Shown: positions 1 through 53,005 of the stretch, piece after piece | Layout of the letters: the number at the start of each line of letters is the position of its first letter | How positions within the stretch are numbered: position 1 is the stretch's first letter | Assembly: GCF_003073045.1 (NCBI RefSeq) | Contig: NC_037603.1 | Span: forward strand, 17,552,192-17,616,191 | Source: Pomacea canaliculata | Lineage: Eukaryota > Mollusca > Gastropoda > Architaenioglossa > Ampullariidae | Reading direction: 5' to 3' | Length of the DNA stretch: 64,000 nucleotides | Made by a program: the position numbers and the translations under genes | Notes under the pieces: generated by a model | The model's database searches: none | Seen by the model: only the letters and a program-made list of their open reading frames with translations | What the model was told of the DNA's origin: nothing

Positions 1-3000
1 ATCACAAGAAATGATGTGATATTCAGAATAAGATCAACTTTATAATCAGACTAAATACTGACTGACTAGTATGATACAACAGTAACACGTACACACACAC
101 ACAAAGAGATATATGAACTATTTTTAATTTGTGTGTCTGACCTTCATGATATTTGTTTCTGTTTTAGCGGTTCAGGAGTCTGAATATGGGCAAAAAAGTA
201 ATTTGATATGTATTATATTTCACTCAAAGATGTTTTGAACAAACTCTTAGACATACAAATATTTTTAAGTCTTCTGAAACCTAATGTAAACATATCGTGG
301 CTTTATAAACACATTTGTAAAATGTCCCTGTCATTAAGTATCATAATTTCCAACTGCGAGACAAAAGGTTGAGTCACGATCCTCAAACAAAATGAGTTCA
401 GTACTTGCTGAACACCAGGACCCGGGTGCCGAATGTTTGGTGTCAGGAAAGGCGTACACCCGTGTTTTAAACCCTTCACACCGCTGGCAGGTCTGCTGGC
501 CGGCCTCACACACCCCTGGCTGGCAGGCCTGCCAAACCACTGAGCCTGTTGGAGGTAATACAAGCAGTCAGCACCTGTTCGTGTCCCAACATGCGACGTG
601 AAGACGAATTATCGCGCCCCGCGCTGTGACGTAGTCAGACGTGATTTTCTATCACTCGTCACGTAGTGCAAAGTCTGATAGACAGAACTCTAGTCGTGTG
701 ATGGTGTGTGATCCCATGTGTGCCAGGCTGCTTGTCTTCGCATGACACTGCGTGAAGATCGCAGTCACAATAAGCCGAGGGTGGGACGGGTACCTACCTC
801 TCCCCTCCATAAACTTTTCGCCCTCATTGAAGTGCTACCCCGAGGACTGGCAGGGAGCGACATACTACCTCCAGGGTTGGCAGGACAGCGAGCGAGAGAG
901 AACAAGACTTCCTGCTCCGCTTTCTCGCCCACAGCCACAAGAGTTAACGAGAGTTGTTATTGTCTACCTTGGGTGCACGCTCGGGTGGGACGCCGTAACT
1001 TAGCGACGGTTGAAATCCAAGAGGTCAACTGTTTGTGGTGTCTCCTTCAAGCACGTCTGTCTTTTTCCGATGGGATATTTGTGTGGACAGTAAACGGAGC
1101 TCCACTGGATAAGGTCTGTCATTTGTCAAGTTTATTACTGTTTATTGCGTTGTCGTGTAGTCACTAGGCGCAGCCATCTCAGGTGTAGTTGTCGCTGTCG
1201 TCAGCAGTTGTTACCTTTGTCCACACTGCCATCCTTCACTACATGGACGTCAGCGTGGTGCTACTACAACTTCTAAAGTCTATGTTTCTTCCACTGCCGC
1301 ATCTCGCAAGTTCTGAAAATATTTGAAATAAGAGTTGAGTGTTGAGATTTGAAGAGAATATTTAGATGCTCCACCCGTGTCGTTTGGGAACCGGGTAGCG
1401 GGGGTGACACAGGTTAGGCCGTGGGGGAGAGGGCGGGACTGATGCCTCGATGTGCAAAGCTGCTTGTCACTACTTTCAGCATGTCATGCCAGCTTGAGCC
1501 TTAGTGTCAGTCGTTAGGACACTTGTGACAAACTGTCCGGCTCAGAATAGTGTAACATGACAGTAACAACAGCACGAAAAACATAACAATCAATAGTTTG
1601 AATGTCTTCAGGGTTCCTGTGCACAATCATTATTAAGAAAAATGAGTTGTGGAACTGTGGAATTATGATGTCTATTGTTCATATTATATACAGTGACTTA
1701 CATTAGCGGCAATTAATTAGAGTCTGCCTTAATCTACAGCATAAAGCAGTTTGTACCATTTTACACAGTATTTGTTTTCTGTACTTTTCTTCCATAATGT
1801 AAAGAGACAGCGAGTGTAGTGTAAGGGACACTTATTACACAGTGTAGAATAGTTTGTTTGTAGTCACCCATGCGTGACACAGGGCAGACATTCCTTTGGG
1901 ATGCTGCGGCTTTGACGATCTGATGGTCAGGTCCCTGCTGGTGTAACTTGATGAAGATTCATGTCACTGGTAGAGAAACTTGACGAAACTTTAGTTGGCT
2001 GCTGGAGTATCTTGAGAGTATCTTGAGAGTTGTAGCAAATGTCTCAGCCTAAAGTGGAAACTTGTACATCTATAGACACGCACGCGAACATTATGCACAG
2101 ACAGACGAAATGACGGACCGACAGACACTTCTTCATTCTCTCTCTCTCTCCTCTGTGTATTTGTGTGTGTGTGTTGATCGCCGAGCACTGTCAGTATTTC
2201 CCAGCTGAATCGAGGGCCCATGCCTGGGGTAGCGACTTTCATTTCCATACAATGAGGACCATATTGATTGACTTGGTACACTAACATACGACTTCACTCT
2301 CCAGAACAAACCCATTAAAAGGCAATGACTGGAACAACAAACAATCCATCTCCATCATAGCTGGCAATGTGGGCGAGTCGGCGACACCCTCACCACTGCT
2401 GCCTCTGCTGCTGACGTGTAAGCTCCTGCATCCAAGCTCCTCGTCAAACTCAATCAGACATGCTTGCTCGTGCATAGGTCATACCTTCAACAACTCTAAA
2501 AATAAAATTTAATGTCAAGAGTTATAGACTCTCCACTACCTGTAGTTATGTGTCTTCAGTGCCTCTAGCTCTGTCATCATTATCTCTTGGCCCGAGTAAA
2601 AGGAGGAGTTTGAAAATCAGGGGAGGTAGTGGTGTAGGAACCAGCAGGGGGGTCCGGGTAAGGGAGGAACCTCCTCCAGAAACATACTAAGAAGGCAAGA
2701 ATGTCGTTCACTGTCAGCATGGAGTTCGTCCCCACCCCTCAATCCCACCAATTTAAACACCTCCCTACCCCCCTGACTCAGTGAGGCAGTACACAACAGT
2801 CACGATCCGTGGCCTCGCTTTGAGTCCAGCCGCAACATGGTGCCATTAGCGGGGATGCTCTGTTCACCAGCCGTGTGCCGAGCAGAAATGACGGGGGATA
2901 GTGTGGACACAGCAACCTCCATTAGACACGTGATCAATCGATTGCTTGGCCCCCTGACTGTACTTAGTGGGATCTGAACGCTGCAGGATTTGGGTCTCAA

Positions 3001-39509: not shown

Positions 39510-40295
39510 GAAAAACATTTCAACAAAGTGTGGAGGAAGAGAAGGTTGAAGAAATGTAATATTGTAAAGGTCCCTAAGAAGGGTGACTTGTTGATGTACA
39601 GAATATGAGGACGAGAGTCAAGCAGGGATGCTTGCCCGTCCTTTTCCTCATTTTTATCGACTGGATGATGAGAGCCATCGGATATAAGCCAAGAGGGATC
39701 GTGTGGGCAACGACAGTCTGGCTGGAGGACTGCGACTTCGCTTTGCTGTCACACACTCAGAAGGATATTCAGGAAAACAAGACCAGGCGGTTGTTGAGCT
39801 CAAGATCCGCAGGGGCTGTAGAATGTGTGGAGGTGAACAAGCTTGCACACAGTTACTAAAGTGAAAATCTTTAAATAAAATATGTCTTAAGTTCTGCTAT
39901 GTGCATCAGAAACCGGAAGAACCAACAAAACGATCGGTAGCCGTCTCAGAGGTTTCGAGGGACGAGGCCTTCGTTGAATTCTCTGGAAACAAAGAGTCCA
40001 AACAAAGAAGTTAGCACAAACAACATCGCGGAAAGGTTTAACAGAGACGATGGAGGGATGGGCCACGTATGGACAAGACCAGGTTCTCACATGCTGCCCT
40101 CAGCTGACACCACCTGGAGGAAGAAAGAGAGGCAGGCCGCTGAGTTCGTGGCAACTGTCGAAGAGAAGATATAAGTGGCTGGCAAGACCTGGAAGAAAGT
40201 CAGCTGCTCGCCAAGACCAATATGGCTGAATAAGATTCCTTGGTGCTATATGCTTCTTTTGGGGCAAAGAGGATTAATTAAGAACTAACTAAACT
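39510..40295 (+). mobile_element. Degenerate LINE fragment with internal deletions
   Basis: Plus-strand pieces read IVKVPKKGDL (near 39565), then RVKQGC...FIDWMMR (near 39615-39670) and LEDCDFALLSHTQKDIQEN (near 39720-39780). After a diverged stretch come PPGGRKRG- and AESW-like residues and a typical LINE 3' end running into AACTAACTAAACTCAAC. Most of the reverse-transcriptase core between KKGDL and VKQGC is missing. This is a different LINE lineage from the fragment in TRAPPC1, judged by the 3' end. Confidence 0.75.
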
Positions 40296-40838
40296 CAACA
40301 GGCAATCTGTTTAACGTGGTCAGTATCAGCACACTTCACCAAACCATCGTCATTATGCTTGTTCTTCTCTCTCTCCCCATGTCCCCTTATCTCCCACCCG
40401 TCTGGTTGTCCGGCCTTCAGTATCGTCACCTCAGTCTACTTGTCAGTGAACACTATAACTTTGCTGTAACAAATGCCAGATAACCTGGAAATCAGGACAA
40501 AGAGAAGGGGGTAAATCTAAGCAACCCTTTAAATCTTTCGCGGGTTTGCATGAAAAAATTGTTAAGAAGACATTTTTAAAGGAAGCTTTTAAGAGGTTTT
40601 ATGTCATACAATATCATTGAATTAATCCATATAAATGAACTAATTTTGTACAGTGAATAAAAGTATATCAGTCATCATCGTATCTTCTTATTTTTCTTCT
40701 TCTTACCTCTTTGTCACGTTCAGGTGTCTGTCTTCCTGCATGACTGAGCACCTTATCAAAGTGTTTATTTTTTATTATTAAAGGAAATTATCTCTGTCCA
40801 TCTGCAGGAGTTATGTTTAACTCACACATTTATTCTTT

Positions 40839-40844
<6 letters not shown>

Positions 40845-40892
<48 letters not shown>
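40845..40892 (+). repeat. TC/AC compound microsatellite
   Basis: About twelve TC units followed directly by about eleven AC units. Confidence 0.95.
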
Positions 40893-41283
40893 TTTCTGTA
40901 CACGCACGCAATAGTCATCGAGCTGGAGAGTCCATAAGTAGTGTGTAACAAGAGATTACAACCCGTTAGGTCTTGCAAACAAAATATTAACTTTATTTTC
41001 CTCAGTAAGGACGACACACTTCACTCTCCGTTCGTATCTTAAACATGCCTTATTGTCACTTACATGGAACTTAAATTATGTATTTGAAAAAAAAAACTTT
41101 TCTTTTTTGTTGTTTCAGAAGTTTGATTTGTCTAGAATAAAATTTGTCGAAGAACCATCCAGATTCCTTTCAGCGCACTTCTGGGAGAAATCATTGTAAT
41201 GACTTACTGTATGGCTGTACAAATACTTGCCACATCACACATTATTCTGACTTATTGTATGAGTGAACATGTAGGTATTTTGT

Positions 41284-41289
41284 TTTATT
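41284..41289 (-). terminator. Possible poly(A) signal for the candidate peptide-precursor gene
   Basis: AATAAA on the minus strand, about 125 bases after the TGA at 41412. Confidence 0.35.
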
Positions 41290-41411
41290 CTAACACCCAA
41301 TGGTAAATTATTGTATGAGTGCATGTGCACTTGTTTCTCCGAATTATTCATGACACTCTACAGTTAGTTCACGTAGACAGGGATTTTGCGCGTCCTGTAG
41401 TGGGTTGGTCC

Positions 41412-42184
41412 TCACCAGCCGGTAGGGTTGAACTCTAAAGGTCGACGTTTGAGTTTCAGCTCCAAGTCGCCCACTCGTCTGGTCAGCCCTTGTTCCTCGC
41501 CGACTCCCACGTTCCTTTTAAAACTCTGCCACTCGGCTGTCTCTGGAACCGGGCGAGGCTAACATCATCGTCGCTGAAAAGCGAAGACAAGCGGTTTCTG
41601 TCGAAGGTGGGAAGGCTGAGGATGCTGGCTGAGCAGACCAATCAGCGTACGGCGAAGCAAGGGCTCCGATGACGTCACATCCCGTTTGCGCCTCCAGCCA
41701 CTGGGATTGAATTTCGGGGCGAGGCGCTTGGCGTCGAAAACGGGGGAAATTTTGGAGAAACTCGCTGTGTCTCCCCGAAGGCAATATCTGGCGAGAACTG
41801 CTGGAGGAGGACACCCTGGACGGTGCAGACCTCTCAGTGGCGGCCCGCCAGTCGAAGCGTTCGTCCTCTGACAGCAGGTTGGCGACTGGAGGCCAGAACT
41901 GCCTCTCTGCATGCAGGGCCACTCAGAACTCGAAAGAATTTCTCAACGAAATCGGAGGAACATTCCTTGTCATTTCTATCGTCTGCATCGTCGTTGTTGT
42001 CTACGACAGCCACTGAGCGCACTGACCTCCGGTGTAGCGAACCCAGCTTGAGTGCCGGCGACGACACAGACAGTGACGTACAGGATGACGTCAGAATGGT
42101 GACAAGCAGCAGGCAGCAGACGCAGCAACTCATCCATCGGCATCCCGACAGCACTTTGAGTAGCATCGTGCACTTGCTGACCAC
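41412..42184 (-). CDS. Candidate secreted peptide precursor with repeated FNP[S/T]GW peptides (reading frame unresolved)
   Basis: The minus-strand frame opening at 42184 (alternative Met at 42166) begins with a signal-peptide-like hydrophobic core (MSCCVCCLLLVTILTSS) after a good acceptor (ATCCTTTCAG) upstream. Further down, one single frame holds KR-LAPKFNPSGW-RRKR (41682-41729) and, ending at the TGA at 41412-41414, KRR-PLEFNPTGW. The two peptides use different synonymous codons, so the similarity is at protein level. In-frame stops separate them; a 108-bp GT/AG intron (41543-41650) would remove these. The signal-peptide frame and a protein-like middle frame (MALHAERQFWPPVANLL) do not join to the peptide frame without an unseen intron or indel. 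AATAAA lies at 41284-41289. I do not recognise the family. It could be a real precursor with sequence errors, a decayed gene or partly chance. Confidence 0.35.
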
Positions 42185-43342
42185 TGTCTGAAAGGATAAT
42201 ATGGCATTGCGATTATTCTGATACTTTATACAAATTGTTTTGTGTGTGTATTTATATTACAAATAAGTCAACGTGGCGATTTGTGCTTGCATGCGCGCGC
42301 ATGTATGTGTATTGAAGAATTTGACTTAACTATCACCAACGTAGAAACCGATCACCATCGCACCTTGTACTGAGACTAACCCATTAACTAACCAAATCAT
42401 TCTATTCTTAAGTCTTGCTGAATAAGTTTTCATCATTGGATAATGTCAGGCTTTTCGTCTACACGTCCTGCAGTTGTTCCGGGCGCATTCTTATGTTTCC
42501 CGAGTGTGCAAAGATATTTTAACTAATTTCAAAATCTTTTCTATAGTTGCATCCGTGTCATTTTTTGTAAACTCTAGCCCTGCTGTGTGCGATTGTGGGA
42601 TCGCAATTTTGGCCACATGAGCTTTTTGAACTGAGGGTGAATATTAACTGCCAGCTATCCCTCCACCCGTTGGGTGTGTCGTCTACGACTACGTCAAGCG
42701 AACGGCTGATGATTGGTCCGTGGAGAACAGGACTTTGCGGGACTCGTGTAACCTGGGAAGGCAGGAGGGGGTAAGCAGAAAAAATAAAAGGAAGAACTAA
42801 TTGGTTGTTTTGACGAAAACATAATTAGGACTTTGAAGGTAATCCGGGTTTTATGTCCTCCATGAGCTGGCTGGGTGTGCGGAGGTATATCCGAGGGGAA
42901 CAAGGAAGATATGCCTGTTAGCGGAAATCACATCAAGCAGGTTAATTAAAGCAGATAAGCTGTCACAGGATGGTAAATGACAGTCTTCAGGGGCTGCACG
43001 ATAACACCAGTCTACAGCAAGAGCACACGCACATGCTCGTGCAAACACACATAACTTCAATTAAAAAAGAAGTGCTTTCTTTCTTCTGACCTTCATTGAA
43101 AACTTAAGATCATTTTTTGAAGTATTAGTATTTTTTAAATTTTTAAGCAGAAAAATATTCTCGTTATCTGTGTTTTCTATCCGTCAACCAATCTATTATT
43201 TGAAATGCTGGAGAAGACGGTGTAAAGTGTAGGAGGGTCTGACAAAATGAAATTCTCTAACTTTTTCAAGAACATTGTTTGAGACATTATACTGTACATC
43301 GAAAATACCGATGAAAAACCAATTATTGCATGAAGTGATGGT

Positions 43343-43424
43343 CGTTTCTTTTTTCTTTCTTTCTTTTTGTTTCTTTTTTTGTTTGTTTGTTTGTTTGTTT
43401 GTTTTTTTTTGTTTTTTTTTTTCT
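43343..43424 (+). repeat. T-rich low-complexity tract with GTTT units
   Basis: CTTT and GTTT repeats merging into poly-T. Confidence 0.9.
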
Positions 43425-47437: not shown

Positions 47438-47905
47438 CTACCCACCAAGAGCCGCATCTTCAATGCAAATGTAAAGTCAGTCCTTCAATATGGATCTGAG
47501 ATATGACAAACACCATCACCAGCAAGATTCATACATTCATCAACAAATGTCTGCGCCACATCCTCAACATCAGATGGCCCGAGAAGATCTCCAATACAGA
47601 CCTGTGGGAGAGAACCAACCAAAAACCTGCCAGCCAAGACATCAAGAAACGGAAGTGGGGCTGGATTGGTCACACCTTGCGAAAGCCGGCCAACAATTTA
47701 ACAAGACAAACTCTGAGTTGGAACCCACAGGGTAGGCGCAGACCATGGGAGACCCAGACAGACGTGGAGGAGATCATTCCACAGAGAGGCGGAGACACCT
47801 GGCATGACATGGTCCCAAATGAAGGGTCGCCCAGAACCGGGTCCGATGGCGGGGTGTGGTTGCGGCCCTATGCTCCACTGGGGGCGTAAAGGAATAAGAT
47901 TTTGT
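47438..47905 (+). mobile_element. LINE 3' fragment (5'-truncated)
   Basis: It starts with KSRIFNANVKSVLQYGSE, then a shifted frame reads INKCLRHILNIRWPEKISNT, followed by DLWERTNQKP and KKRKWGWIGHTLRKP. It ends near LRPYAPLGA with GGAATAAGATTTTG. This is the C-terminal end of a non-LTR retrotransposon ORF2 with its 3' UTR. About one frame break and a stop separate the parts, so it is younger than the TRAPPC1 copy but dead. Confidence 0.88.
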
Positions 47906-50580: not shown

Positions 50581-50866
50581 CCGGAGCTATGGGCAGTGCG
50601 CACGTGCTGGGTGAAGTGCCCGTTTTTTTCTGATCTTTTAATAGGAAAGGCTTTAAAGGGGAGCAAACGGCATAAATTAGCAAAGTGGAGACTTAGGGGA
50701 GGAGGGGCACTGCGTTCCTGGGCCGAGGCAGGCACGTGCAACGATGCGACCAGCGCGAGCGGTTATTCCGGGTCGCGTGTTGACTCGCCTCGTGCGCAAG
50801 AAGGAGGAATAATAGGACAGCGACGTCCATCTTGTCCCCCTTCCCCTCTCGGCCACCCCCGACATC
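50580..50866 (+). promoter_or_regulatory. GC-rich promoter-like island
   Basis: Markedly GC- and CpG-rich relative to its flanks. It ends in a pyrimidine-rich stretch (CCCCCTTCCCCTCTCGGCCA) directly before the ATG at 50867. No TATA box is seen. Confidence 0.35.
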
Positions 50867-50998
50867 ATGCAGGGACAAGAAGACACCAGTTCTCCGTCAG
50901 ATGGTGTAGGAGATAAGCCTGCGGTTCATAAACATAGACTGTATACCTCAAACTTGGAGCCACATGAGCACTGGTCAGCGCTGCCAGTTAAGAACTGA
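50867..50998 (+). CDS. Short reading frame after the GC-rich island, possible first exon
   Basis: ATG at 50867 opens 43 codons starting MQGQEDTSSPSDGVGDKP and ending at TGA 50996. Composition is protein-like, and the frame sits directly after the island. It could be a first coding exon that splices out within the frame, or a small standalone frame. No downstream exon was identified. Confidence 0.25.
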   Translation: MQGQEDTSSPSDGVGDKPAVHKHRLYTSNLEPHEHWSALPVKN

Positions 50999-53005
50999 AT
51001 TTAAATTAACAAGTTCTGATTCCCTCATTTGTTAAGAATTAAAAGTAAACAGCATTTAATTTTTTTGAATAGTGTTATACACTTAGAAACACAGGGGTTA
51101 GCAATAACTATTGCTTAGATTTTTATAACTGTTATTTTCGTTTTCATGTAAGAAGAACATTTTGTTTAAGTGGGTTTCCTGTATTCTCCTTTGTCGCGTC
51201 CTGACGACATACTGTTACTGTTGAAACCAGGAGGCCAAGACACAGACTGTCTCGTCTTATGTTTATTCCCAACACGTGAGTGGTCAAATGGGCCAACCTG
51301 CCTGACTTGCTTACTATCAAAGCGATTCTGCTAGCGACCATCTCTCACCCTGGACTGGATGGTTAAAGAAGGGGAAGGAAATCGGAGTACCTGGAGAGAA
51401 AAAAACCTGACGACCATCCCCATATCAAGTTAACCTGGACAGAGGGCCTTGCACTTCTTTCAGAAATGGGAGCATTTACTACGATCCTTACTGAAATGGT
51501 GACACACTTTAGTAGTGCGATGCCTGAGTACATCTATCTTTGCATGTCTGCCCAGCTTTGCTTTGAACAGTCGACAAAGCCATTGCACTAAAGGGTGGAC
51601 TAAACTTTCTGAATCGTATCCATAAAATAAAATCGAACGTTTGGCTTTCTTTGGGTAGTACTCCTTGTGTATCTTAAGCCAGTATGTGTGCGCGTGCACA
51701 TGAAGTTGTGATTTGTGAAATATGTATTTTATTAACGCATATAGGAGCACAGGGCAAAGACTTACAATACGCAATATTTACAAGTTGAAAATAGTCGTCG
51801 TAATTAATGTTAATACTTTTAAATTACTTTTAATTAACTGTTTTAAAATTAGTCCCTTTGATTTTTTTTTATACGGTGGACATTATGGGCATTTCATGTT
51901 CCACCTTTTCACTTTGAGAAATGAGTGCCTCGATATTTACCAAACTCCAGCGTCTTTCATACACCTTACGCTCAACATGTACCGAACCCTGTTTCTAAAT
52001 TCAAAAGAGTCATATCATTCCCGTTTTACTCTTTGAAAACGAAATGACAGCTATCCATGATTCTGTCCTTATCAGAGCTTTCGTCGATGGAAGTCAAGTG
52101 GATTTTGTGCCACCCAAAGGAAGGATCGTGTCAACTCTCATTTCACACGGCGCTGTAGTGGCCATGCTAGCCACCTCTCTTCCTGTTTGACATCTGTCGC
52201 CACATCTGAATGCCTGCACGTGACTCTCGCCAGCATGCTGTTGCAGCACGATGTGTCCATTTTTCCTGTCCATCCTGCTGTTTGATTTCGTCATCCATGA
52301 CCCTTTTCAGGAAAGGTCGTTTTGAATGCGACTAAAGATTGAATATTTGTATGCGTGCGTGTTGGCGGATGGGTGCATGTGTATTTCGATCTCCCATCAG
52401 TTGACTGAGAAAGATAAGGTGGTTCTTAGTCTAACGATCACTTTGAAGCTGAGCCTAGACATGCCCCTTAAACTCCAGATTCGCCTCTGGAATAGTTGCA
52501 TTTGAAACTGGCGAGAACGAGAAAGTAAAACAAGTCATGAAAATCTCATCACAACCTCCACGCTCTCGTGTGTGTGTGTGTGTGTGTTCTTTTGTGGTAT
52601 ATTTCCTGAAAATAAATGGGTTCATATCACGTTGAGCTTACACTGTTAGCTGTGATATCTGTTTTTAATGTTCTATAATCACAACCCTGACATTTGTGTT
52701 GTAGCCACCAAAGACATAAAAATGTCATCTTCATTTTCGCACATTTCACGCAATTAGAACACGCCCTACAGTTTACAGATAATAAAAATATGGTAATGCT
52801 GTTTCGCAGATTAATAAATGTCAATTATTTAAACAAAAAGTTTTTCCCATATTATTCTCACTACATATGCAACTCTCTCAACACTCACAGTAATGGCCTA
52901 CAGGTTCTCGACGAAAAACATTCCAAGAGCTTCGACATAGTCTGTTCACGTGACTGTGGGTGGCTGTTGGTGCATCAGCATTTCTGTTAAGCTGCATCGA
53001 AATGT

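Follow-up and report, generated by a model that had tools for sequence, protein, structure and literature searches.

A possible frame-disrupted precursor of two FCAP-like peptides in an apple snail genome

A GC-rich block on the minus strand of the 64 kb of DNA analysed here (the window, on contig C14 of a genome of 440,159,624 bases in 24 contigs) combines a signal-like N-terminus, dibasic sites and two similar peptides, the last of which ends at a stop codon. This arrangement is probably more than chance, and our tentative reading is that the locus is a frame-disrupted precursor of FCAP-like peptides, probably a decayed gene. The FCAPs (feeding circuit-activating peptides) are a family of gastropod peptides without amidation that has been tied to feeding in Aplysia. 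An earlier note on this DNA had recognized the layout of a secreted precursor and suggested a peptide gene; at the scale of the window the layout does go beyond chance, a working gene does not follow. Among the neighbour genes in the window we identified those of an LRR protein, an aldo/keto reductase and an ankyrin protein, which bear no evident relation to the candidate. The features of the locus, numbered by window position, are the following:

41388..42190, minus strand, GC-rich block with the candidate coding exon (GC 0.57 versus 0.37 outside)
42187..42189, minus strand, predicted splice acceptor ahead of the signal-like ORF (weight-matrix score 8.2; the AG occupies 42189-42188 and the exon begins at 42187)
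41837..42166, minus strand, signal-peptide-like ORF of 110 aa by a hydropathy criterion, beginning MLLKVLSGCRWMSCCVCCLLLVTILTSS
42025..42026, minus strand, predicted donor CGGAG/GTCAGT inside the signal-like ORF (score 7.5)
41694..41723, minus strand, candidate peptide LAPKFNPSGW, after KR (41729-41724) and followed by RRKR (41693-41682)
41565..41567, minus strand, in-frame TGA between the peptides
41559..41561, minus strand, in-frame TAG between the peptides
41415..41444, minus strand, candidate peptide RPLEFNPTGW (or PLEFNPTGW), after KR (41450-41445) and followed by the stop
41412..41414, minus strand, TGA closing the peptide frame, overlapping a donor-like site GGCTG/GTGAGG (9.2)
41284..41289, minus strand, AATAAA about 120 nt past the stop, weak evidence because the strand carries five AATAAA within 40000-42400

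The two motifs, FNPSGW at 41711-41694 and FNPTGW at 41432-41415, share one frame, and the coordinates and flanks first reported for both peptides were correct. Their distance, previously put at 94 codons, is 279 nt or 93 codons. The second peptide does end directly before the stop, and its reading as PLEFNPTGW after KRR has an equal in RPLEFNPTGW after KR, which gives a register common to both units: KR-LAPKFNPSGW-RRKR and KR-RPLEFNPTGW-TGA, with exactly four codons from KR to FNP. Similar peptides between dibasic sites, as in a peptide precursor, are therefore present. Seven residues are identical between the units (K, R, F, N, P, G and W). The codons for F, G and W are the same and those for K, R, N and P each differ by one silent third base, so the synonymous differences described before hold for four of the seven identical residues. 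At the S/T position two bases of the codon differ, and each of the four spacer codons has two or three differences. A wide FNPxGW pattern had 14 matches in the genome versus 10 for a reversed control, and dibasic flanks were found only at the two candidate peptides: none of 11 others, read in context by eye, had dibasic sites on both sides, and the twelfth (C5:16762228), judged by its letters alone, has a TAG inside the motif. FNPTGW, FNPSGW, longer forms and near variants had no match in open-access texts, which is weak evidence of absence because sequences in figures and supplements lie outside their scope. Three related coding-like FNPPGW copies, followed by ...PLKIPFTCP..., lie on contig C11 near 6.02, 6.25 and 6.27 Mb (L034, L035 and L036); they show no dibasic sites on both sides and form a small unnamed gene family or repeat.

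The GC-rich block was located by a best-block fit on 40400-43400, with a log-likelihood gain of 46.5 and edges within 2 lnL at 41349-41400 and 42148-42211. Its upper edge coincides with the predicted acceptor, 21 nt ahead of the ATG; at the other end the block extends 24 nt beyond the stop at 41412. The signal-like frame reported upstream of the peptides was recovered: its ATG is at 42166, 21 nt after the acceptor and 443 nt before the first peptide. The N-terminus is signal-like by hydropathy, and its frame differs from that of the peptides. Two further GC-rich stretches in the window correspond to LRR exons, and three others (GC 0.54-0.56; window 401-1000, 2601-3000 and 50601-51000) have no identified gene.

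The pair was set against chance by comparing dibasic-bounded peptides with BLOSUM62 over their last seven residues. It scored 38, whereas 400 window shuffles reached no more than 26 within one frame and 30 across frames and 2255 further ones no more than 29 either way, so that the best among all 2655 shuffles was 30; in a natural control of 20 stretches of 10 kb from the same genome (200 kb) the pair maximum was 24. A Gumbel fit gave about 1e-4 per 64 kb, a figure too generous 4- to 6-fold because the fit predicted 12.3 and 21.9 shuffles scoring at least 28 and only 2 and 5 were seen. Between about 0.1 and 0.8 pairs this good are expected per 440 Mb (some 6900 windows), and the pair alone is therefore not significant genome-wide. 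By the hydropathy criterion the signal-like ORF was the sole match in the window, with three matches in the 200 kb control; local shuffles held such an ORF in 9 of 3000 cases, in none of them equally hydrophobic. The pair and a nearby signal-like ORF in combination are unlikely by chance. Since all criteria were set once the finding was known, these figures are guides and not exact probabilities.

Coincidence would mean that two similar peptide strings and a hydrophobic ORF have come together by accident in a GC-rich, stop-poor stretch, with no gene or with a gene in another frame, for example one in which the signal exon (42166-42027) is joined to the sequence from 41797 on and the frame closes at VAEF-stop. 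The post hoc criteria and the number of pairs expected per genome speak for this explanation, as do the reading frames of the block: all three minus frames and the antisense frame (172 aa, 41673-42188, plus strand) are long and open, and the 200 kb control is rich in ORFs of 140-190 aa. What it has to account for is that one place combines the pair and its shared KR register with a rare signal-like ORF and with a GC-rich block whose edges fall at the predicted acceptor and close to the stop, and we consider it unlikely, although with a real share of the probability. The antisense frame, of 172 codons, is in register with the FNP frame and had no match in Pfam or NCBIfam.

The in-frame stops reported between the peptides are there (TGA at 41567-41565 and TAG at 41561-41559), and no single open frame runs through the signal and the peptides, given these two stops, the differing frames and the lack of convincing introns. 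Splice sites were scored with a generic weight matrix, with the neighbouring exons as a yardstick. The claim that no visible splicing joins the signal to the peptide frame is not borne out, because GT-AG joins of middling score do so, 42081-41797 (sum 11.1) and 42026-41787 (sum 10.3), and both give an open frame through KR-LAPKFNPSGW-RRKR. The best single join from the signal frame scores 14.7 and leads to a frame with neither peptide, which again fits coincidence; the best partner of the donor at 42025..42026 is the acceptor with first exon base 41797, and the frame entered there holds neither peptide. An intron that would remove the stops between the peptides scores at most 6.6, versus 12.8-20.4 for the best joins of five neighbouring exon pairs. 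A working precursor with both peptides, as first supposed, thus lacks an acceptable intron over the stops, and at best the gene would be broken, wrongly assembled or built in a way that our models did not capture. The putative intron sequence has a GC content of 0.56-0.58, exon-like and the same as the rest of the block. At lenient thresholds 655 spliced models were obtained, so such enumeration proves little. Among the donor-like sites listed in this region, GGCTG/GTGAGG at the last peptide has the highest score. For an exon past it there are 172 acceptors scoring at least 6; the continuations listed, limited to acceptors that lead into 25 open codons or into a W-basic start, included none that was compelling by eye.

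Codon usage gave mixed results. The frame with the best codon score shifts along the block, and phase-specific GC agrees with these changes only partly. Over the first 150 nt or so the codon score is better in the FNP frame than in the signal frame, a point against the reading of a broken precursor. The composition-corrected codon score, trained on a small set of 1219 codons from the window, reached 6.4 in its best stretch; 95% of local shuffles were below 3.7 (maximum 6.9), and in a natural control of 1.7-kb pieces 95% were below 7.7, with a maximum of 21.3. Codon paths forced from the ATG to the last peptide scored 1.3 at best and down to -26. The path with the fewest shifts (two) retains the signal and FNPTGW and omits FNPSGW, and the scored paths with both peptides need six or seven shifts, two of these leaving the signal-peptide frame. 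Judged by hand from the open frames, keeping the signal and both peptides would take at least three shifts, or a single shift if the two stops are read through. The weakness of this codon evidence is a further point for coincidence.

The breaks could also lie in the assembly rather than in the animal. A working precursor gene would then have an intact frame obscured by assembly indels, or introns poorly scored by simple matrices, and both peptides or at least LAPKFNPSGW would be made. The two joins from the signal to the FNPSGW frame suit such a gene, and local errors are possible in the published contigs, described in the relevant part of PMC6129957 as a long-read assembly of a highly heterozygous genome, which we infer to be the assembly analysed here. 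The same source states that the contigs were Illumina-corrected, and this argues against a working gene, as do the poor scores of any intron between the peptides relative to neighbouring exons, the exon-like GC of the putative introns, and the intact state of the FCAP exon and of most listed GPCR matches. Among the latter, by hand count, 17 of about 150 listed (151 in all) have an internal stop, some of which may be true pseudogenes or introns, and the rest had none. We regard a working gene as doubtful, about as unlikely as coincidence. Dense arrays of rhodopsin-type GPCR matches were seen at 10.60-10.99 Mb on C11, mostly as single open frames of about 680-715 codons, and at 4.18-4.99 Mb on C14, with 312-751 codons; they look like lineage-specific expansions. 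Other coding exons of the assembly, including the highly repetitive FCAP exon, are intact, and for that reason we take true decay, as a unitary pseudogene or a null allele, to be a likelier source of the break in the candidate than sequencing error.

The FCAP gene of this genome was found by pattern (L040, C2:4254900-4257200, positions 810-1946, plus strand). Its exon is intact and stays open for 379 codons. It codes for 18 peptides bounded by KR sites, GFDDLGGMNVHGW among them, and lies in a GC block of 0.51-0.58 with flanks of 0.33-0.46, similar to the block of the candidate. FCAPs are free acids ending in VHGW or VHGGW. Three of them were matched by mass in Hermissenda neurons (PMC8735849); the masses given there for peptides such as GLDSLGGFNVHGGW, which we recomputed, fit the free acid and not the amide. 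The L040 peptides have GGM where the Hermissenda peptides listed there have GGF. The earlier note knew of no family with a free-acid GW C-terminus. FCAP is such a family, by the masses listed and by the FCAP gene of this very genome, which encodes GFDDLGGMNVHGW before KR.

Like FCAP, the candidate would give free-acid peptides with a GW ending (in FCAP N-x-x-G-W or HGGW ahead of KR) from a GC-rich coding exon, and both lie in the same genome. Its first peptide has the GW end before a dibasic site (RRKR); in the second the stop takes the place of that site. Among the 1141 peptides of the window with dibasic bounds, the two candidates came closest to FCAP (scores 18 and 17), and none of 3769 control peptides reached 17, the best scoring 12 or 15 depending on the FCAP reference; both peptides had already been singled out beforehand, and the resemblance consists of N-x-x-G-W only. 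The differences are considerable. Molluscan FCAP precursors carry 6 to 28 copies, usually of 13 residues, in the account of them in PMC6425005, whereas the candidate has two copies of 10 residues and falls short of this tandem repetition. It has neither LGG nor VH and does not match the LGG..VHGW-type consensus, sharing only N-x-x-G-W with GGMNVHGW, and the genome has its FCAP in L040, a separate intact gene. Alignment of the candidate with FCAP showed nothing beyond the motif (best E 1.2). Because of the mismatch in copy number, length and LGG..VH core, we do not file the candidate as FCAP. A rather unlikely possibility is that apple snails possess another family of free-acid GW peptides, distinct from FCAP (KR-x4-FNP[S/T]GW), with a short two-copy precursor whose gene is intact in most animals and broken in the reference individual or its assembly.

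Other peptides ending in GW are less similar. Amidation requires a glycine after the tryptophan. AKH/RPCH-type peptides have an F-x-P-x-G-W-like ending, are amidated, begin with pyroglutamate and directly follow the signal peptide; no amidation, N-terminal pyroglutamate or post-signal position was seen in the candidate. APGWamide and RGWamide, short spiralian peptides ending in GW according to the passages of PMC8557429 concerned, are amidated, whereas the W of the candidate stands directly before RRKR or the stop.

No paralogue was found in the genome by a DNA search (very common words skipped) or by a search with the signal ORF (next best E 0.12). The candidate locus had no match in Pfam, none in NCBIfam, a prokaryote library, and none in PDB for two of the frames. 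A reading as an RNA family was dropped, with nothing in Rfam. The tail of LINE reverse transcriptases has a WNPxG-KRKR motif slightly like FNPSGWRRKR, and a fragment at window 47500-47886 (plus strand; WIGHTLRKP...SWNPQGRRRP) is presumably such a tail, itself without a Pfam match. That the candidate is a relic of this kind is nevertheless highly improbable: a tblastn comparison of the fragment with the locus gave a best E of 0.03 away from the peptides and 0.96 where it aligned over the first peptide, blastn of the locus within the window returned nothing but short matches apart from the locus itself (the best 25 nt long, E 0.015), and the DNA search of the genome yielded no other copy of the locus.

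Under the reading of a decayed FCAP-like precursor, the block from 42187 to 41412 would be a present or recent single coding exon for a secreted precursor of about 250 residues. The signal peptide would route it into the secretory pathway, prohormone convertases would cleave at KR and RRKR and a carboxypeptidase would trim the basic residues, so that the products would be two free-acid decapeptides, LAPKFNPSGW and RPLEFNPTGW, with calculated MH+ values of 1116.584 and 1216.611; for PLEFNPTGW the value is 1060.510. These might act as FCAP does, as free acids ending in N-x-x-G-W, presumably via a G-protein-coupled receptor. The frame of such a gene would now be broken, with signal and peptide frames joined only by a shift and two stops separating the peptides.

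Should the locus prove a relic or a coincidence, it would illustrate that peptide strings picked out by eye need to be checked for frame and transcript. Confirmation would place a small family of free-acid GW peptides next to FCAP and would point to the possible loss of a signalling gene in one lineage of snails.
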